From positions 1 to 32,532 of the forward strand of contig NAVB01001983.1 in NCBI GenBank assembly GCA_002179805.1: DNA of 32,532 bases, read 5' to 3'. Of this stretch, positions 1 through 29,847 are shown in pieces. The notes beneath the pieces are model-generated. The model made no database searches. It was not told the origin of the DNA and was given only the letters and a program-made list of their open reading frames with translations. Made by a program: the position numbers and the translations under genes. Origin of the DNA: Acanthamoeba lenticulata (Eukaryota; Discosea; Longamoebia; Acanthamoebidae). Positions within the stretch are counted from its first letter, which is position 1, and every line of letters begins with the position of its first letter.

Positions 1-66
1 AACCCTAACCCTAACCCTAACCCTAACCCTAACCCTAACCCTAACCCTAACCCTAACCCTAACCCT
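1..66. repeat. Terminal telomere array, (AACCCT)x11
   Basis: Eleven perfect AACCCT units run from the first base and stop abruptly at a T run. The C-rich strand reads 5' to 3' inward, as expected at the left end of a chromosome with a TTAGGG telomere. The window therefore starts at, or very near, a physical chromosome end. Confidence 0.97.
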
Positions 67-1140
67 TTTTGTCCTTTTCAATTTAAATTGGTTGGAATGG
101 GCTGTTGCCTTTGGTGACAATGGTTGGGTTTGTACATTTCATTGTTTCTTAGTCATCCAGAAAGATATTTGCATTATTGTTGTGCTTGGCTTCCAATTGG
201 CTCAAATAGTCCTTGTTGGCTTCAATAATTGCCATTGAAGTGCTGTTGTTGTAAGTTTTCCTCTTTTGGTTGAGTTTTGCCTGGTTGGGCAATGAAAAGG
301 GCACAATAGTTTCTGCAATTACTTGCATAGCAAGCATGTCAGAGCTCATATTCTTTATTGACTTTTTGAGTTTGTCTTGGTCCTTACAACCAACCTACTT
401 TTGTGATTTTTTGTGTTTTTTAGTTTTTTCATTCTTTTTTTGTTGTTTTTTGTTTTGATCTTAGTCATTCAGCTTTTTCACTCCCTTATCCTCCCATTTT
501 TTTTTTATTTCACACTTTTTTGCCTTTCCACATTTTCATTTGGTTTTTCACTATTGTCATCATTGTTGTCATTGTTGTTGTTGTTGCAGCTGGTCTTTTG
601 CAATCCTGCTTCATTGACCTTGGGGTCTGGAACATCTATGTCACTCCCCCTTGCTCACTGTCACTCTTTTGGTTGTTCATCCACCTAATTCAAAAAGTGA
701 ATGAATGTATATATATGCAGTTCAATGGTGGGGGAAAAAGACTTTAGCATTTGTGGTCAATATCAAAATTGTGATTTCAATTTCATTTTCTCAAACATTG
801 GAAGTGAAAAAGAGGGAGGGTGAGGGGGTAGGTAGTATTTTGTTGCTTGTTGGTGATTTTTTATATCATTGACAATATTGGTATTGTTGTTTGTTTTTGT
901 TTTTTCTTGTATGATATTGTTTGGGTGTATATATTGTATGTTAGGTGGATTGTTGTAATATTTTAAACATTTATTGTTTATAGTGTTGATCAATAATGAT
1001 ATATATTTCAATATATATATATATATCAAATGGTTTGTAGAAGATTGAATAAATCTATATTGTGTATTCATATGTATAAAATTTTAATTTAGTATTTTAA
1101 CTTGATCAATTGTTTTGAATTAAGGTTTTAACAATTTATT
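67..1140. other. AT-rich subtelomeric block without a confident gene
   Basis: This kilobase is far richer in A and T than everything inboard of 4.4 kb, with long T runs, an ATATAT tract near 1008-1026 and T-rich pyrimidine stretches on the plus strand. A 12-bp perfect palindrome, CAATTTAAATTG, lies at 79-90, thirteen bases from the telomere. Open frames here are low-complexity (Phe-rich on plus, Asn/Ile/Tyr-rich on minus). The only coding-like piece is a possible minus-strand terminal exon at 149-394, listed separately. The right part is the 3' flank of the recombinase gene that ends at 1141. Confidence 0.7.
149..394 (-). CDS. Possible terminal exon of an unrecognised protein (relic?)
   Basis: On the minus strand a 3' splice-like site (AAAAGTAG before 394) opens a frame that runs to a stop at 149. 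It gives about 81 residues with a balanced, non-repetitive composition, including KDQDKLKKSIKNMSSDM and a polar, possibly coiled-coil end. Farther upstream, at about 510-650, another minus-strand stretch looks like an Asn/Asp-rich coding segment, but no clean splice joins the two. No family is recognised. It could be the last exon of a second protein of the telomere-associated element, or chance in AT-rich DNA. Confidence 0.25.
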   Translation of the reverse strand, partial: VGCKDQDKLKKSIKNMSSDMLAMQVIAETIVPFSLPNQAKLNQKRKTYNNSTSMAIIEANKDYLSQLEAKHNNNANIFLDD

Positions 1141-4100
1141 TTAAAACCTTGGTTGAGCACAACGTTTGCACTCATTTCTGCGTGCAAAATTGACATTATG
1201 ACATTTGGCACATTGCCAATCACCAACACGATATTGGTAAGAAGGTTGAACAGCAGTTAAATGGGGAGCTGTCATGGTTGGGGGAGGTGTTGTAAATGTA
1301 AAAGGGAAAGAAGGTTGTTCCAGACTTGTCGTAGCTGGTCTTGGCTCCTCTTGCTGCTGGTGGGGTACAGCTTCTTCTATCACCTGTAATTGTTGATTGT
1401 TTTTTTTTTGGTTAATAATAATATACAAAGGTAAATGGTTTGTTATTGAGTTTTTTGTTTGTTTTTACCTTAATTGTTGTGGTGGTAGTGGTTTTCATTA
1501 ATGATTGCCACACTGTGTGGACTTCTTGGCTCTTGGCACGTGGATCGTGGGTCACATAGTAGTCTTGCCCCGTCTTGTGCTGATGTAGCAACGCAGCACT
1601 CAGAGTCTGCTGCTTGTCCACCGTGTTCTGCATGGATGATGCTGTTTCCGCAACCTTGCGCCAGACACGGAGGTTGGTCTTCTGGGTCGTGTTCTCCTGG
1701 ACGAAGTTGATCCAGAGGCCACCGATCTTGGTCGCCTTCTTGTTGCCTGGAAGGAGGAAGAGCCAGGGTGCCTGAGCACGCCACACTCGCACTTCGTCAC
1801 ACAGCTCAGTCTGTGCAGGTTGGCGAGAAGCAATTTGAAGTGGAGCACAAGTTGGCTGCTGTGTTGTATCTTCTTCGTCATCGTCGTCATCATCGTCGTC
1901 GTCCACAGGACTCTCCTCTTCATTGTCGCTGGCTTCGACCATCCTTCCACGAGAACGCCGAGAGATGGAGCACGCGTAGATAGGCCGGACCATTGTCATG
2001 TAGGCAAGGAGCTTCTTCTGCAAAGTGTCAGGGAGGTCGAAGATGTGCTCGCCATGGAAGGCCGCGTTTTTGAACTGCACGATCTGCAGAGAAACACGAG
2101 ACTTGAAGAACAGGATGCCGTTGGTCGTACGACTTCCAGCAGGTTCAGTGTGTGCCATCACCTCAAGAACTCCGTTCTGTGGACGCATCGGGGGGATATC
2201 GACAAAGAGGGAAAACACGATCCAGTTGCGCAGCCAGTCGACTTGTTCCTGGCGCTGGCCTTGAGCGCCAACGAACTCGCTTGCGGTTGTAGTGTGGAGC
2301 ACGGCTTCCAAACGGCGCAGGCGTGCCCATCCTTCCGTGTCGAGTGCTTGTGCCATGGCACTCATCCACTCGATCGAGATCCATGTTCCCCGTTCTTGAA
2401 GGGCCTCTTGTGAGTTGCGTGCTCGCACTTGTTGCTCCGCTCGATCCTTGAGACGGCCGATCTGTTGGCAGAGGTAGTGGTGGCTCTCCGCCAGTTGCTC
2501 GCGGAGCTCTGCAACCTCACTCTGCAGCCGCGGTAGAAGAATAGCACGTAGCTGGAGGTCTTCACCATCCCACGTGCTGGTAGACACACGTGGGTGAGTA
2601 AGGTGCTGGAGGAATGCTAGGTGCCAAAGGAGCGCGCTCATCAAGTTGACTTGAGATCGGCCCATGAAGTTGTCCCGCTCACGCCCTCGCGTAAACTCAC
2701 TGATTGGCTCGAGCTTGCCAAAAAGGAGCACCATCTTCTTGTACGTGGCATCGTTGTTCTCTTCTGCCAGCACCTCTGCCACGCCAAATGTGTGGTGAGT
2801 GGCAAGTGGGGTGAGTGGTGTGGTGAGCGGCAAGTGAGGTGAGCAGCGAGTGGTGTGGTGAGTGGTGTGAGTGGCGAGTGGTGTGGCAAGCAGTGTGGTG
2901 AGCGGTGAGCGGCAAGCGGTGAGCAGTGTGGTGAGCGGCAAGCAGTGTGGTGAGCGGCAAGTGAGGTGAGCAGCGAGCAGCAAGTGAGGTGAGCGGCGAG
3001 CGGTGAGCGGTGTGGCGAGCGGCAAGCGGTGTGGCGAGCGGTGTGGCGAGTGGCGAGCGGCAAGCAGTGTGGCGAGTGGTGAGTGGTGTGGCGAGCGGCG
3101 AGCAGTGTGGCGAGTGGCGAGCAGTGTGGCGAGCGGTGTGGTGAGTGCGGCAAGCGGTGTGGCGAGCGGTGTGGCGAGCGGTGTGGCGAGCGGTGTGGCG
3201 AGCGGCGAGCGGCAAGCGGTGTGGCGAGCGGTGAGTGGTGTGGCGAGCGGCGAGCAGTGTGGCGAGCGGTGTGGTGAGTGCGGCAAGCGGTGTGGCGAGT
3301 GGCGAGCGGCAAGTGGCGAGCAGTGTGGTGAGCGGCAAGCAGTGTGGCGAGCGGCAAGCGGTGAGCGGTGTGGTGAGTGGCAAGCGGTGAGCGGTGTGGT
3401 GAGTGGCGAGCGGCAAGCGGTGTGGCGAGCGGCGAGCAGTGTGGCGAGCGGTGTGGTGAGTGCGGCAAGCGGTGTGGTGAGTGGCGAGCGGCAAGCGGTG
3501 AGCGGCGAGTGGCGAGCGGCAAGCGGTGAGCGGTGTGGTGAATGGCAAGCGGCAAGCGGTGAGCGGCGAGTGGCGAGCGGTGTGGCGAATGGTGAGTGGT
3601 GTGATGAGTGGTGAGCAGTGTGGCGAGCGGCAAGCGGTGAGTGGTGAGTGGCGTACCTTGACTGTGACCAGTGACAAGGCCAGTCACTACGGCCTCAAGA
3701 AACTTGCGCACAAAGGATTTGTAGCTCAAAATTGTCTGCGTGGCCAGTGGTGTGAGCTGAGATTTGTTCGAGTAGGTGAAATCTCTGTTTTCAAGGTATG
3801 CGACAAAGCGCACCAGGTAATGCTCAACAGCAGCATAGTTTTGCTTGCGGGAGCGGGACTTGATGTGTGGCGCAGTCGGACTTGGTGGAACGGCTGATGG
3901 CGGGATGACGCAGTGAATGGCAATTGCGGGCTGTTGCTGGCAGGTATGAAGATGACGAGGAAGAGATGCAGCATTTGAAAAAACCTGCTGGCAATGCGGG
4001 CAGGTTTGGTCGGAGATGGGGGCGTGAGCCTGCTTTTGGTGCTTGTTCAGCTGTTTGTGGCTGGAAAAGGAGGAGTCGCATTGTGAACAAATAAACTCCT

Positions 4101-4248
4101 CCTCCTCCTCCTCTGCTTCTTCCTCTTCTTCTGGCATTGGACGTGAGCGTTTTGCCACAGGATGTTGGCGCTTCATTGTTGTGGTGTTGAAGAAAACTGT
4201 TTTGTTGTGCCTCTGGCGCAATGAAACAGAGAAATTAATTGAGGGCAT
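1141..4248 (-). CDS. Tyrosine recombinase with C2H2 and RanBP2-type zinc fingers
   Basis: Three exons fit: 3657-4248, 1469-2775 and 1141-1383. Introns are 2776-3656 (phase 1) and 1384-1468 (phase 0). The spliced frame is 713 residues from the ATG at 4248; an ATG at 4176 is an alternative start. Order: basic then Glu-rich head; two C2H2 fingers (CSQCDSSFSSHKQLNKH and CPHCQQVF...H...C); a helical region like a recombinase core-binding domain; then a catalytic domain. Likely catalytic residues are Arg395 in PPMR, Arg570 in WRKVAET, His597 and Tyr603/604 in HKTGQDYY. A Lys-Asn motif followed by GEHIFDLPDTLQKKLLAY fits the region between the arginines. An Asp/Glu run interrupts the domain near residue 490. 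The last exon encodes one RanBP2-type finger (WQCAKC...CKRC). The activity expected is DNA strand cutting and rejoining through a 3'-phosphotyrosine. Family placement is by motif only. The RKxxxT form in place of HxxR matches Crypton- or virus-like recombinases rather than phage integrases. Confidence 0.75.
2790..3652. repeat. GC-rich minisatellite forming an intron
   Basis: About 860 bases are built almost only from 7-base blocks (GCGAGCG, GCAAGCG, GTGAGCG and close variants) and a 5-base GTGTG block, combined in varying order, for example GTGTGGCGAGCG. The plus strand is strongly G-rich and C-poor. The array begins right after the putative 3' splice site and ends four bases from the putative donor (CAAG then GTACGC at 3656), so it fills a minus-strand intron. 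All three minus frames stay open through it because the units contain no stop triplets, which makes misleading long ORFs rich in Arg, Ser, Pro and His. Confidence 0.85.
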
Positions 4249-4256
4249 GACCAGTG

Positions 4257-4289
4257 GGCGCGACTAGTGGGACGCGCCATACGCGCGTC
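4257..4289. other. Nested inverted repeats upstream of the recombinase gene
   Basis: GGCGCG at 4257-4262 pairs with CGCGCC at 4273-4278, and GACGCG at 4271-4276 pairs with CGCGTC at 4284-4289. They lie just upstream of the recombinase start codon at 4248, within its promoter. They could be a regulatory hairpin, a recombinase binding site, or chance in GC-rich DNA. Confidence 0.35.
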
Positions 4290-4360
4290 AACTTTTTTCT
4301 AAGTCTCAAAACACAGTCATTTTAACTGGAGTGCGACTTTGTGCAGGGACTTAGGTTTGA

Positions 4361-4401
4361 AACCCTAACCCTAACCCTAACCCTAAAACCCTAAACCCTA
4401 A
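4361..4401. repeat. Interstitial telomere array
   Basis: Four AACCCT units are followed by degenerate AAAACCCT and AAACCCT units, in the same orientation as the terminal telomere. Just before it the sequence TTAGGTTTGAAACCCTAA (4351-4368) is an imperfect palindrome of telomere-like halves. The array separates the telomere-associated segment from the gene-dense arm and cuts into a kinase-like reading frame. The simplest reading is a former chromosome end that was later extended. Confidence 0.9.
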
Positions 4402-5244
4402 GACCTTGACGCTCCAGTTGTCGTAAATGAAGATGTTTGGTTAGGGTAGGGAAGCTCTGGCCGGATCTGCTTGGCGGGGTCGAGCTCAATGACGCCCTGG
4501 AGGAGCTTGTGGAAGGTCGTGCCTTGATAGGGGACGCGCCTCGTGAGGACCTCCCACATGACAATGCCAAAGGAGTAGACGTCAATCTTCTCATCGTAGT
4601 GCTTCTCGTAGTAATGACTACTGGTAGGAGAGTGAGAGACAGGCAATAGAGAGCCATCGGTGCCCCAATGCAGTAGGCCCATATCACTGCCCATGTCTAT
4701 TGCGTACTGGGCAAAGGGCGATGCAGCGGGCGGCTTGGACATCTCCAAAAAGCAATGGGAAAATGGCAGATCAGTGATCTCAGTGACAAATCATCACTGA
4801 TCTGAGTGATCCTTGTCACGGCCTCCTCAACGACCCGCCCCAGTATTTGGCCTTCTGTAAGAGTCACAGTGCCAAGACACTGCCATCGGCCCCGATCCAT
4901 GTCGCTTTCCCTGCGTCTGCAGAACTCTGCCCAGTCGTCGCACATGAAGCCGTAGGTGAAGAATGTCAACACCTTGCCCTGCAGTATCTCTTCAGCATGC
5001 CCATCTGCCGATTGAGTGGCAACGAGAGCGTTGAAGGACCCGTATGGGTGGAACGAAAGAATTGCGTGGCAGTCATCACCAGACTTCTGTTTTGATCGGC
5101 CTTGGCTTGGCGGAGCCGGCTAGATCCCACCCCGATCTGATGTAGTAGATCGCACGCGTCATCAAACCTGTAATAAGGCTCTCTCGCCAGCCCAATTACC
5201 CACATGGCCAAGAATTGGGCCTGTTGACTTTTGTTAAGCATCAT
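4402..5244 (-). pseudogene. Truncated kinase-like gene fragment
   Basis: The minus strand encodes a piece of a tyrosine-kinase-like (TKL) catalytic domain: YDEKIDVYSFGIVMWEVLTR followed by VPYQG and an IRPELP tail, which is kinase subdomains IX to XI. Farther upstream another coherent frame covers about 4790-5080 (FHPYGSFNALVATQSADGHA, FFTYGFMCDDWAEFC) and an ATG-led segment starts at 5244 (MMLNKSQQAQFLAMW). Frames change between these pieces and I could not join them with phase-matched introns. The glycine loop, catalytic HRD, DFG and APE motifs are absent. The fragment stops exactly at the interstitial telomere array, so its 3' end is missing. This fits a gene broken by chromosome truncation; unrecognised introns could explain part of the frame changes. 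Confidence 0.6.
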
Positions 5245-5357
5245 GTGCGCTTGTGAAGATTCATCAAGAAATCCTGTTCGCGCCTGACCTTAATTTGACG
5301 GACGGATGCGGAGGTCGGAACGGGTCTCGCACGCGTGCACGAGGCGGGCACCGAGGC

Positions 5358-24114: not shown

Positions 24115-24478
24115 CGCTGTGGGTGGGGGGGGGGAGGCTTGGCAAAGCGAGTAAACGCAGGCTTCACTGCTTCACCTCGGCTCTCTCTAGGGACAAGAAT
24201 TTGAAATATTGGCGGGAACACCCAGTCGAGGGCAAAGGCGCGAAAAGATTCGTGAGGCGAGAAAAAAAAAAACCGAAATGGAGGTGGTTGAATCTGCTGG
24301 CTCGCATGTTCTTAAAGAAGGGGATGATGAACTACAACCATTCTTGCTGGAACGGTACGTTTTGCGTCTATTTGGGACGCAAAATTGTAGAATTTCTCTT
24401 ATTTTATATCTGGCACACAGATACTTGGCGAACTCGCCGTGTGATGACTTGCTAAGGGCTCCGGCAATCAACGATCCG
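24115..24478. promoter_or_regulatory. Divergent promoter region between SEC12 and POLD2
   Basis: The two genes start 364 bases apart in opposite directions. The stretch holds a G9-10 run near 24126, a pyrimidine patch near 24180 and no TATA box of note. A plus-strand open frame enters POLD2 from 24209, but it has no polymerase homology before the ATG at 24479, so the region is taken as shared 5' flank. It may also hold 5' non-coding exons. Confidence 0.55.
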
Positions 24479-26565
24479 ATGGCGTTGGAGGGAGGGGAGG
24501 AAGGAGGGCGCAAGATACAACGCGAAATGGCTGACTACACCGCCAAACATCACAGTTTTCGTACACTCACCAAGGAGTACTCGCAGCAGTATGCGCCGCT
24601 CTACTATCACCGACTTCAGCAGATGCGACCACGACTCCTGCAAGAAGCCAAAGAGCGGTGGCACAACAATACGGCCAAGCCACCACGCATCGTGCACAAG
24701 ATCCTGGAGCTGCGTGCTGAGGAAGAGGTCATTGTCTCCGGGACACTCTACAAGGAAATGCCCCTTCGACCCAACATTCTTGAGTCCTACGCCAAGGAGG
24801 TGCGCGCAACAACAACCCTCTTTCTCTCTCTCTCTCTCTCTCTCGTTGTTGTTGTCGTTGTGTTGGAGCCAGTTTTGTGCTCGCGTCTCTTGACTCGATT
24901 GCTGATTAGACCCCGTCTTTTTACCACTTCAGCGCTCCATCGTTCCGCCACCGCTTCGCTCGAATTACTCGAGTGAGAAGGACCGCCTCATTATCGAGGA
25001 TGAATCCGGTCGCATTAGCCTGGTCGGCGCGAAATTACCCACGAGCCTGGTGGTGACGGGCATCATCGTGGCCATCCGTGGCCGCGAGCTCAAGGATGGT
25101 GACTTCGAGGTGGAGGACATTATCTATACCGGCATACCCTCTCAGCTCAAGCGTCCCGTTCTTGGTATGGACTCTTTGTCTAGCTCAATTGTCTAGCCGC
25201 AACCGCCACCCGCCTAGAGATTGGAAATCAGCGATTGTGACACTAGTGATGCTGCTCATCTCTCGTTCTCTCTTCCTTTCCCTTGTATGTCGAGAGCAGA
25301 GCAGGACAAGTACGTGGCCTTTGTGTCCGGCCTTTCCATTGGGAACGACAGCAAAAATCCGCTCGCCGTGCAGCTGTTCATCGACTACATCACCGGCCAC
25401 GTTGGTGGAACTGCGGTATATCGATAAGAAGTCTTCCCCCTTCGCTCCCCTACCCGGGCTGGCCCTTCTTACCTCCATCACGCGTGCAGGAGCAAAAGCT
25501 GGAGTCTCGCATTTCGAGATTGATCATTGCCGGTAACTCGTTAGTCCCGCCGGAAGAGCAGACCAGCGCTATCAAGAGCTACCAGAAGGTTTAACGCTAC
25601 AATTGAATGGTCATTCAGCGCACGCGTGGTGATGATCTCTTACACCACGCAAATGTGACAGAGGCTCACACCACAAGCTCAAGCCCGCATGCTGAAGCCG
25701 ATCCAGGAGCTGGAGCAGCTGCTGTGTCAATTGGCCTCGAGCATCCATGTTGACATCATGCCCGGTGCAACCGATCCGGCCAACTTCGTGCTGCCGCAGC
25801 AGCCGTTCAACCCGTGCCTGTTCCCCACGTACAACGAACCTCTTCCCTCTTCCTCCATGCTTTTGTTTTCAAGTCCTCACGGATACCGTTGCGGTCAACA
25901 GGGCGAGCCGCTACGCCACGTTCTTGCCCGTTACAAATCCTTATAAATGCAGCATCGACGGCGTATCGTACGACCTCCTTTCATCACCTCTTCTGAGGGT
26001 GTTTGTCTGACCGGTTCGTCCCGTGTTCGCAGGTTCCTGGGCCACGCGGGCCAGCCCGTGGATGACATCAAGAAATACATCGACCCGGCGAAGAGTATGC
26101 CTTCTTCTCTTTGTATCCTCAATCTGTGAAGACCAAGAGCCGTGGTGCTCACCACCCATACTACCAAAAAACAGGCGATGACGTGCTGCAGATACTGGCG
26201 GACACGCTCGAGTGGTCACACATGGCTCCTACAGCCCCCGATACGCTGGGCGCTTACCCGTTCTCGGGCGAGGACCCCTTCGTGCTGGAGGAGTGCCCCC
26301 ACCTCTACTTTGCTGGCAACCAGCCCACCTACGCGTCCAAGCTCATCACCGGTACGATAACATTCACCTTAGCTCTTGTTTGAGTCTGATCTCTCTTGAC
26401 GCTCACACTTCAAACTTTGGGGCTGCGTGACATGAAGGCAAGCGAGGGCAGGCGGTACGGCTCTTGTCAGTCCCGTCCTTCGCCAAAACCGGCACGATTG
26501 TGCTGGTCAACCTGCGAACCCTCGCCACACACCCCATCGCCTTCAACGCGGAGCTCGATCTTTAA
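24479..26565 (+). CDS. POLD2: DNA polymerase delta subunit 2 (small B subunit)
   Basis: Nine exons join in phase: 24479-24799, 24933-25164, 25300-25415, 25490-25588, 25662-25828, 25902-25967, 26033-26094, 26175-26351, 26438-26565. The product is 455 residues, close to the human subunit. It starts with the family motif [17 protein letters not shown], has an OB fold ([36 protein letters not shown]), then the inactive phosphoesterase-like domain: [79 protein letters not shown] and [20 protein letters not shown]. It ends with [19 protein letters not shown]. The subunit ties the catalytic subunit of polymerase delta to the other accessory subunits for lagging-strand synthesis and repair in the nucleus. 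Intron 1 holds a (CT)n pyrimidine run on the sense strand. It is convergent with CDC45. Confidence 0.95.
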
Positions 26566-26960: not shown

Positions 26961-29847
26961 TCAGTGGCCCTTCATGCGCCACTGGATGTACTCGAGGAAT
27001 TTGTGGATGTCGTCGGCCATGACCTCCACCACCGATGAGTCGAACCCAAAATGGGCAATCCGCGCCCCCGTCCGCGACGCAGCCTCTCGGAAACTCCGCC
27101 CAAAGTTCCTGCGCGTCCGGTAACCCATAAGTGCATGATGATGATGACGATGATTATGACGGGGTGGTTGTGGTGACGAGACGCACTTTTCCTTTTGTGG
27201 TGAGTTGAACTCTTGGTCGGTGCCGACGGCGCCCACGACCAGGTACGTCCCCTTCTTATCATTCTTCGCACACACGAGGAAGGGCTTCGGCTTCTTCTTC
27301 CGCTCCTGTTGGTGTTTTTTGTCATCCATCTCGGGTGGTGAGTCGCGCAACGGGATGGCGAGGGAGTGGGTTTATCGCCCGGGCACCACGCACGTTGACG
27401 TATTCGACGAGGAAGAGAGCGAGCCGGCGCAGGGCCAGCGGATGGATGAAATAGTTGAGGTCCGGCGTTTGGTGCAGCATCGTGTATCGCAGCGGGCCGC
27501 AGTGCGTGATGCACCTCTGTTGATGCACCCACACATAAAATGGCTCTTTCAATCTTCCCACTCACTTCGCCCAAGATGCAAAGCGACTGGGCTTCTTTGC
27601 GCACCTTCTCTACAACATCAGCCGCTTGCCGCACGATGGCCTTCTGCAAGTTGATGGCCAGCTCAATACCTGCATATAGATTGATGAAATGATGAGTCGT
27701 GCTTTAAAGGCGTCAAGAAGGTGGTCTCAAAGCGCGGCAGAAAGGAGGAGTACCGCGCTGCTGGAGGAGGTCGTAGGCGTCGTCCTGTCGCAGGGAGAGC
27801 GAATCAAAGGCGCGCCAGAAATTGGAGACCCACTTCTTGTTTTCCTCCTTCTCCTCCTTTTCGTCTTCGGCCCATCCATCAGCGCCCTCGAGCAAGCTGC
27901 ACACCCGTTCCCAAGTCAGAAAAAAAAAAATTCTCTGCTCGCCCGAGCCTGGGCATGGGAAGGGGGTGAAAGGAGGAATAAGAACCTTGAGATGATATGG
28001 ACGTGGTCGGCGGCCGAGACTTTCGACTTGAAGCCTTTTTGCTGCACACAAGTCGATTGTAACCAGTCAGTCCAATGTTTGCTCATCAGCTCGTGAAAGG
28101 GATCTTAGAGATGGGATGAGGGCAGGACGAAGGTACAAGGACAAAAGACGGGTAGCAGAGGTCGTTGAGGCCGAATTGAAGGCCAATCTCTCGGACGTGC
28201 TTCTGGAACTGCTCCCGGATGGCATTGTCCATGCAGTTCCAGTTCTCCTTGGCCTGCGCCAATGGCACGCCCATCCGTGCCAGCAGCACGTCCAATCGCT
28301 GCGCGCACAACCAAGATCCCCGCGGCCCTTAAGTGCCCCCGAAACGGCCAGCGTGTAGATGGAGCAGGCGGGAGGGGTAGGGTGAGCACCTTTTGCCCAT
28401 TCTCCTTCCAGATGCCCAGCCGAGTGGCGATGTATTGGGAGTGCCACATACTAGCGTAGAGGCTCCAGTGGCGGTAGAGCATGAACCGGTATCTGGACGA
28501 TTCATGAAAAGATCAGCAGGTGAGCGAGGATCTCGACAGGACATGTCGAAACGGCGCCTGGTAGGGAAGGCACAGCGTACTCATTGGAGATCTCGACATG
28601 AGCGTGGCCAGAGGTGCGGATAGCGCGCTTGAACTCGTCGGTGCAGGTGACCTGCTCGAGCACGCTCGACTCGTTGGTGTAGCGGAAAGTAGCCGGCAAG
28701 ACGTTGAGGTCGACAGCGTAGTTCTCGTTGTTGATCTTGTCGGCTTGCGCCCTCGCGGCCTGCGCCTCGCGAATCTTGCCCACGTTGTACTTTTGGATCT
28801 CGTTCTGGTAGACCTCCACCTCAAACCGATATTTGGAGTCGTCGATACGTCCATGCAGCCACTGGTCCGTGATGCCGATAATGGCTGGCCAGTAGAACCT
28901 GAGGTCGACGCCGTTTTGGTAGACCTGAGTCGCCATCTCGAGGAGGAGACCTGCCACAGAGGCGCCGTAGGAGAGGCCCCTGCTCGTCTCCTGCTCGTAG
29001 AAGGCCTTCTCCACTTGTGTGCGGGGAGGCTTGGAGATTTGCCTTGCGATGCGACGCCGCGCGTTCATCCGGCGCCTGTATTCACGGGCTCGTTCACGTT
29101 CCTCCGAGCCGCCATAGCCGCCTTCGTCGAACCCGTCGTCTTCGTCCTCGTCATCTTCGTCATCATCATCATCATCCTCAAAAGCTGGGTCGTTGTACAA
29201 GTCCTGCAGGTTTGGCAGGTCGGCCTCGGTTGTCGTGCCGTCGTCGATGAGCCACACCTGCGTGGTGCACATCCAGTCAGAAGCAACGCATAGTCCCATT
29301 GACCCCCAAGATTGGAAAGGAGAAAGAGGCTCTAAACCTGGTTGTGGCAAATGTTGCGAAGGTTATAGGGCCTGTGCGAGTCCAACACATAAACGAGAAT
29401 GGTGGTGTCGTCCAGCCCGAGCAGGCGCGCGAGGTCTACCATGGCCCCGCAATTGATCAAGAAGAGTGCTCGGATCTGCAACCATGACGCATGCAGAGGC
29501 GTCAGCCAGAAGGGACTCATGATGTACAAAAAGCTTGTTGCGCACCTCTTCCTTGGCCATCTCCTCCTTGGCAATTTCACACAAATCTTCATAGCCCTTG
29601 GTGGGACGCAGCACATAGGGAACATCTTCGCGTTTGAGAATTAACTGCACAAAGTTTGGATTTGAAGAAGTGAGTCGGGTTCCCCCGTGAAAGATGCACT
29701 TCGTCGTAGCTGTCGCACCGTTAGAATGTAACTTGCAGCAATGGCATCGGGGTTGGGCGCAACCAAAATGGTCAGGGCCGGCAATCGTAGGCCCCGAAGC
29801 CGCTTAAAATCGGCGTGCATGTGTGCATCTGCTCCAATCAAAACCAT
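26961..29847 (-). CDS. CDC45: Replication initiation factor Cdc45
   Basis: Cdc45 joins MCM2-7 and GINS to make the CMG helicase that unwinds DNA at replication forks. The ATG at 29847 opens with VLIGADAHMHADFKRL; the DHH-like core has NPDAIAASYILT, REDVPYVLRPTKGYEDL and LLGLDDTTILVYVLDSHRPY. An Asp/Glu-rich insert (about 29105-29185) follows, as in other Cdc45 proteins. Then come GASVAGLLLEMATQVYQNGV, FYWPAIIGITDQWLHGRID, LYRHWSLYASMWHSQYIATR, LDVLLARMGVPLAQAKENW, FKSKVSAADHVHII, VSNFWRAFDSLSL, and the end GARIAHFGFDSSVVEV with a stop at 26961. The order matches the family from end to end, interrupted by short introns; individual exon borders were not all fixed. Divergent from the J-protein gene (136 bases apart) and convergent with POLD2. 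Confidence 0.93.

Follow-up and report, generated by a model that had tools for sequence, protein, structure and literature searches.

The outermost 4.3 kb of contig NAVB01001983.1 (C1240) from the Acanthamoeba lenticulata assembly GCA_002179805.1 (48.48 Mb, 1825 contigs) hold a small element with one gene, the product of which resembles a tyrosine recombinase (YR), located between two arrays of (CCCTAA)n telomere repeats. The window analysed is the entire contig of 32,532 nucleotides. The gene lies on the minus strand (1141-4176), is divided into three exons by two GT-AG introns and encodes 689 amino acids. An earlier interpretation made from the letters of this DNA (the sequence-only reading) had proposed a gene with the catalytic set of a tyrosine recombinase in this segment, bracketed by telomere arrays in the same orientation, and both statements were borne out: the gene encodes R371, K409, R546, H571 and Y579/Y580, and the two arrays share one orientation, the internal one being partly degenerate (Table 1).

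Pfam searches detected two C2H2 fingers in the N-terminal part of the protein and a RanBP2 finger in its C-terminal part, the exon for the latter having counterparts on contigs C336, C374, C1132 and C1323. The catalytic positions occur within the motifs PPMR, FKN, RKVAET and HQHKTGQDYY and were assigned from the order and spacing of arginine, lysine, arginine, histidine and tyrosine, with nine residues from the histidine to the second tyrosine, a pattern which we take to be that of the tyrosine recombinase family. Among 13 aligned relatives, with rows gapped at a position left out of its count, the first arginine is conserved in 10 of 12, the lysine in 13 of 13, the second arginine in 9 of 11, and the histidine and the tyrosine in 11 of 11 each; losses of either arginine are confined to the decayed copy on C1323 and to the relative P0004. 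Protein relatives in other sequence sources, scored among the 8000 candidates with the most shared words, show 42-66% identity. For exon 2, comparison of C1240 with C1086, C336, C1132 and C374 yielded 0.25-0.28 nonsynonymous substitutions per site (dN) and at least 1.9 synonymous ones (dS, saturated), with dN/dS of 0.09-0.14. Because of these relatives and of this ratio, the catalytic motif set is regarded as beyond chance. The recombinase protein is under purifying selection. Within exon 1 of the young subfamily (C1240, C1095, C1003, C938 and C1436), dN/dS is 0.33-0.83.

The sequence-only reading had suggested a search of the spliced protein with hidden Markov models and a comparison of the edges of its copies. 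The second established the proximal boundary of the element, while the first was unproductive: nothing credible for a YR domain was obtained from Pfam, PHROGs or a PDB profile search, and alignment to a pair of DIRS YRs with hhalign gave no signal. The best PDB profile rows (E 0.1-0.5) were rejected as YR evidence, as they fall on the acidic stretch. The sole SAM-like match was that of the relative P0005 to Phage_int_SAM_2 (E=3.9e-4, 21.4 bits), which is below the cut-off of 22. When an AlphaFold model of low confidence was used (mean predicted local distance difference test, pLDDT, of 47), Cre/Tre, XerD and topoisomerase IB recurred among the long structure matches, and the order of strands and helices in the model presumably corresponds to that of YRs. 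Other entries in the structure list, such as Yersinia YopO/YpkA, exportin and a botulinum complex, were judged to be generic helical matches. A structure prediction lacking the YR fold had been named as an outcome contrary to the sequence-only reading; the model, though poor, supports such a fold for the C1240 protein, short of proof.

The other contrary outcome, a single copy in the genome, did not hold either, since DNA and protein searches found relatives on 13 contigs (C1240, C1095, C1003, C938, C1436, C336, C1086, C374, C1132, C1323, C646, C266 and C1074), with copies at other chromosome ends. From the 32 protein matches, C32, C1055, C670 and C726 had been excluded, having matched in the RanBP2 finger only. 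Between subfamilies of this genome, 33-43% of the protein sequence differs, and introns are retained in the element copies. Telomere-type repeats occur at the copy or elsewhere on the contig in 12 of the 13 cases, the exception being C1323, where no array was found within the 8 kb examined. Arrays of at least four units are present on 9 of the 12 family contigs tested (C1074 lay outside the test), versus at least 32 of the 1825 contigs, a lower bound taken from pooled listings (hypergeometric p = 1e-14); shorter arrays occur in C1095, C1132 and C1074. Three contigs with a Pfam Phage_integrase domain (C644, C677 and C310) are all absent from those array contigs, and the other frames of the elements on C644 and C677 appear DIRS-like by eye. 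Among viral contigs, 95 stretches fit the two peptide patterns used and none encodes a relative. The C1323 copy (contig positions 10131-12190) is decayed, with 59 of the 109 CpGs of C374 appearing as TG or CA, versus 13 of 57 in the reverse direction, and with four stops in its main match, all of them TGA; such a substitution pattern suggests methylation-driven decay.

The proximal junction of the element is constant in most copies. A total of 14 proximal termini, distributed over 13 contigs, were readable; these include C105 and C1144, which carry a terminus without the gene and are not among the 13 family contigs, and C1323 and C266 contribute no readable terminus. In 12 of the 14, the border GA(A/G)ACC directly joins CCCTAA-type repeats, always with the same register and orientation; C1144 lies next to decayed repeats and C105 next to none. 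The conserved edge of the C1240 element is this proximal one, at 4360/4361, and an arm of the type GCGACYTTGT, located about 23-25 bases before the border, is shared by the subfamilies with some variation. Near-identical pairs of copies (C374/C1132, 99.8% over 2423 bp; C1095/C938, 97% over 1140 bp; C1240/C1436, 95% over 548 bp) match up to the telomere and diverge there into unrelated proximal flanks. Two of the three pairs differ already in the first repeat adjoining the element (ACCCTAA versus ACCTAAA), and the exchange is therefore placed at the border itself. The element is thus found at the same telomere-repeat point on about a dozen chromosome ends, and targeting to telomeres, which the sequence-only reading had deduced from position, is now backed by the constant register and by near-identical copies with unrelated flanks. 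The chance of 12 equal registers (2.8e-9) is valid for independent insertions only and was not used as support.

The internal telomere stub on the proximal side is 12-60 bp long at all 12 junctions (C1240, C1095, C1003, C938, two on C1436, C336, C1086, C374, C1132, C646 and C1074). Even C374 and C1132, at 99.8% identity to each other, have stubs as short as this. With 200 shuffles each, inverted repeats at the terminus had p values of 0 to 0.03 for C374, C1132, C646, C1003 and C938 and of 0.215-0.97 for the remaining 11 termini (C1240 included), and therefore no palindrome common to the termini is proposed. The terminus on C105 (oriented 5159-5263; 84% identity over 106 bp) stands alone about 5 kb from the chromosome end, with no telomere repeat alongside, and its contig gave no match to the recombinase.

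Table 1. Coordinates of the features at the C1240 chromosome end.
Feature	Position	Strand	Description
Terminal telomere array (AACCCT)11	1-66		Contig end; 11.0 perfect AACCCT units
Distal AT-rich tail	67-1140		Outer border is an element end or a telomere-healed break
Exon 3	1383-1141	-	C-terminal RanBP2-type zinc finger; protein end ...CAQPRF, including stop
Intron 2	1384-1468	-	85 bp, GT-AG
Exon 2	2775-1469	-	Remainder of core-binding half, YR-like catalytic region with acidic insert
Intron 1	2776-3656	-	881 bp, GT-AG, occupied by G+C-rich minisatellite
Exon 1	4176-3657	-	Start codon, acidic stretch, two C2H2 fingers (from residues 30 and 59), initial part of core-binding region
Gene-proximal terminus	4177-4360		Carries conserved arm GCGACTTTGT; last bases ...GGTTTGA abut telomere repeat
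Internal telomere stub	about 4361-4401		6.3 units, 89% match; same orientation as terminal array
Host flank, open frame with partial protein-kinase domain	4398-4790	-	PK_Tyr_Ser-Thr, E=1.4e-6; runs into internal telomere

On the distal side, the terminal array lies directly on five copies, namely that of C1240 and those of C1003, C938, C1436 and C1086, the gene being cut by the array in the latter four, at different places. No distal terminus could be established from repeated copies, the tails of C1240 and C374 each being single copy; in C1240 this applies to window positions 67-1130 within the assembly, and no Pfam domain was found in four tested open reading frames (ORFs) of the tail. CCCTAAG joints also mark ends without a detected element (C1205 and C969) and the inward-facing side of several internal stubs, and for this reason they look like ordinary telomere healing. 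Layers are stacked at several ends: C1003 and C1436 have two each, with a newer copy over a truncated piece of the C336 subfamily, and on C1132 a copy is stacked over a fragment of a second, chromodomain-containing family, which itself forms two layers on C877. The kinase fragment at the internal stub of C1240 fits an older healed break and likely represents a chromosome end that was broken and healed before the present one. Less than 30 kb from this chromosome end are frames for a DNA polymerase delta subunit OB-fold (24191-24973, plus strand) and CDC45 (28505-29362, minus strand). The minisatellite of intron 1 (window 2790-3651) is long in C1240, and the same intron measures less than 100 bp in C336 and C374.

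The chromodomain family is another YR family resident in telomeres, and its sequence shows little or no detectable resemblance to that of the first. With a composite query, its protein gave weak matches to Pfam Phage_integrase (E=1.3e-4) and to the chromodomain (E=0.003), both below the cut-offs, and its named relatives are two Acanthamoeba castellanii Neff proteins. Of the 13 contigs counted for this family, three match weakly (C262, C509 and C531); it includes C374 (77-1186), C877, C661, C1155, C1132, C1174, C266, C41, C531 and the start of C31, which was added to the count from its sequence. Arrays of at least four units occur on 9 of the 13 contigs (p = 3e-14, with the same baseline of at least 32 contigs). 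Seven copies or fragments (C877, C1155, C1132, C374, C1174, C266 and C31) start distally exactly at telomere repeats. There are two subfamilies, each with one proximal end common to four contigs; telomere repeats adjoin six of the resulting eight ends, decayed repeats that of C877 and none that of C1155. The gene is oriented opposite to that of the C2H2/RanBP2 family, and truncation affects its 5' side, whereas in the C2H2/RanBP2 family the 3' side is truncated. Since the two families are cut on opposite sides of the gene, incomplete reverse transcription fails to explain the truncations, and the retained introns likewise argue against it. On C374, positions 77-2170 hold a chromodomain-YR fragment in tail-to-tail arrangement with a C2H2-YR gene; no telomere repeat was seen to separate the two, which possibly belong to one two-recombinase element.

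A multi-copy family with constant register and orientation, intron-bearing copies, purifying selection and stacked truncated layers has thus been directly seen. We consider it probable that this is a family of small, single-gene DNA transposons that encode a YR and insert site-specifically into the TTAGGG telomere of the amoeba. The encoded enzyme would recombine a crossover site at one element terminus with a CCCTAA repeat, the substrate being perhaps a circular or otherwise excised form of the element. As an outcome, the gene-proximal terminus would always point toward the centromere and telomere repeats would remain outside. The conserved arm is a putative recombinase binding site, and the zinc fingers may help in locating telomeric DNA, RNA or chromatin. 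Because the element occupies the chromosome end, its distal part would then be lost through erosion or breakage, after which telomerase would recap the stub, which could serve as a fresh telomere for the following insertion.

Two alternatives dispense with transposition by the encoded enzyme. An old recombinase element fixed in the subtelomere may have been copied passively between ends, through recombination or break-induced replication in telomere repeats, or else subtelomere duplication may have spread a family of host genes located there, or a recombinase domesticated for a telomere function. Several of the observations are compatible with one or the other of these alternatives: the junction and the unrelated flanks are what insertion into telomere repeats predicts, but taken alone they leave host copying between ends possible; truncated, stacked copies are expected of end-to-end exchange, in which a constant register would be inherited; and purifying selection, extra zinc fingers and a telomere location would suit a host gene. 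Acanthamoeba subtelomeres have also been described as polymorphic and poorly conserved (PMC12210455), and WOC, a domesticated Crypton protein, is telomere-localised in flies (PMC3212892). Passive copying is nonetheless unlikely, although it deserves some weight: the differing first repeat in two of three near-identical pairs locates the exchange at the border rather than at an arbitrary place within the array, divergent subfamilies and the separate chromodomain family show like behaviour, and the protein is under purifying selection. A host function has very little probability, given that many copies are truncated or decayed, that 12 of 14 termini meet telomere repeats at the identical base and that the subfamilies of this one genome differ by as much as 33-43% in protein sequence.

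Other features would be accounted for if the recombinase part seen here belonged to a telomeric retroelement similar to TATE/DIRS or Terminons. In trypanosomatids, the YR element TATE occupies a single position of the telomere hexamer, in GGGTTA repeats (PMC6681497, PMC2696322), and the C1240 family resembles it in its insertion at one hexamer position, in one register. Terminons, the telomeric Penelope-like elements of bdelloid rotifers, form arrays at chromosome ends with most copies truncated by short telomere-repeat stretches (PMC6431247), much like the stacked, telomere-truncated arrays described here. However, TATE is treated as a VIPER-like retroelement, whereas the C1240 protein has C2H2 and RanBP2 fingers and no reverse transcriptase (RT) was seen; Terminons are RT elements attached by their 3' end, whereas here the enzyme is YR-like and the 5' side of the gene is attached. 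Pfam searches of the gene and the four tail ORFs detected no RT, nor was an RT-RNase H gene, a feature of TATE, VIPER-like and DIRS elements, found beside the YR in the same sequences, in an element whose distal end may be truncated. Together with the introns retained in copies and the truncation on the 3' side of the gene in one family and on the 5' side in the other, this makes a retroelement highly improbable.

Among known DNA elements, endogenous nimaviruses have been reported to insert into the host telomere motif (TAACC)n and to encode YRs with C2H2 and SAM-like domains, which were set apart from Cryptons and DIRS by the authors (PMC10871703). Compared by domain description, the C1240 family has in common with them a clear C2H2 part and the probable insertion into telomeres; a SAM-like part and a YR part in the same protein are tentative points of agreement, the SAM-like match being that of P0005 below the cut-off and the YR fold match being weak. 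The nimaviral genes reside in large virus genomes, whereas the present element spans about 4 kb, has one gene and encodes a RanBP2 finger. The YR DNA transposons called Cryptons have a single YR gene and no RT, and DNA-based movement is expected for them (PMC3212892, PMC3627910). The C1240 element resembles them in that the YR is apparently its sole transposition gene, neither an RT nor any further transposition domain having been found in the exons or the four tail ORFs scanned. Cryptons are further marked by short direct repeats at both ends and by the lack of a target duplication; in the C1240 family the end that is defined is the proximal one. The C1240 element differs in its zinc-finger set, and telomere-targeting Cryptons are not mentioned in the excerpts of these two articles. 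Acanthamoeba subtelomeres hold mobile elements (PMC12210455); the terms recombinase, integrase and Crypton are absent from the main text of that article. Dirs1-like elements are reported for A. castellanii in a survey table row (PMC4157794). No amoebal telomere-inserting YR element, or RT-free single-gene one, was found in searches of the open-licence PMC literature (including PMC8226300, PMC3627910, PMC10680173 and PMC4640811). The description of the element as a new type in the sequence-only reading was too strong, telomeric YRs being known from TATE and nimaviruses; the combination of features is new within the literature searched. The C1240 family is apparently a telomere-targeted YR element without RT, of which neither the domain set nor the companion family was found described.

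In the literature surveyed, telomere-targeted mobile elements are mostly retroelements, YRs being represented by a retroelement of kinetoplastids and by endogenous viruses of crustaceans. If the transposon interpretation is correct, simple DNA transposons would be able to colonise telomeres as well, with the TTAGGG hexamer itself as crossover site, and the enzyme would be one with specificity for telomere repeats of the vertebrate type. A further idea, which is speculative and to which we give little weight, is that the chromosome ends form a renewing stack fed by two YR DNA transposon families, which would insert into the very short stubs (12-60 bp) and provide expendable DNA that is eroded and healed by telomerase, thereby buffering the ends like Drosophila HeT-A or the rotifer Terminons. 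The presence in one amoeba of two dissimilar YR families that behave alike suggests that YRs easily evolve to target telomeres, or that such targeting has escaped notice owing to the loss of chromosome ends from draft assemblies.

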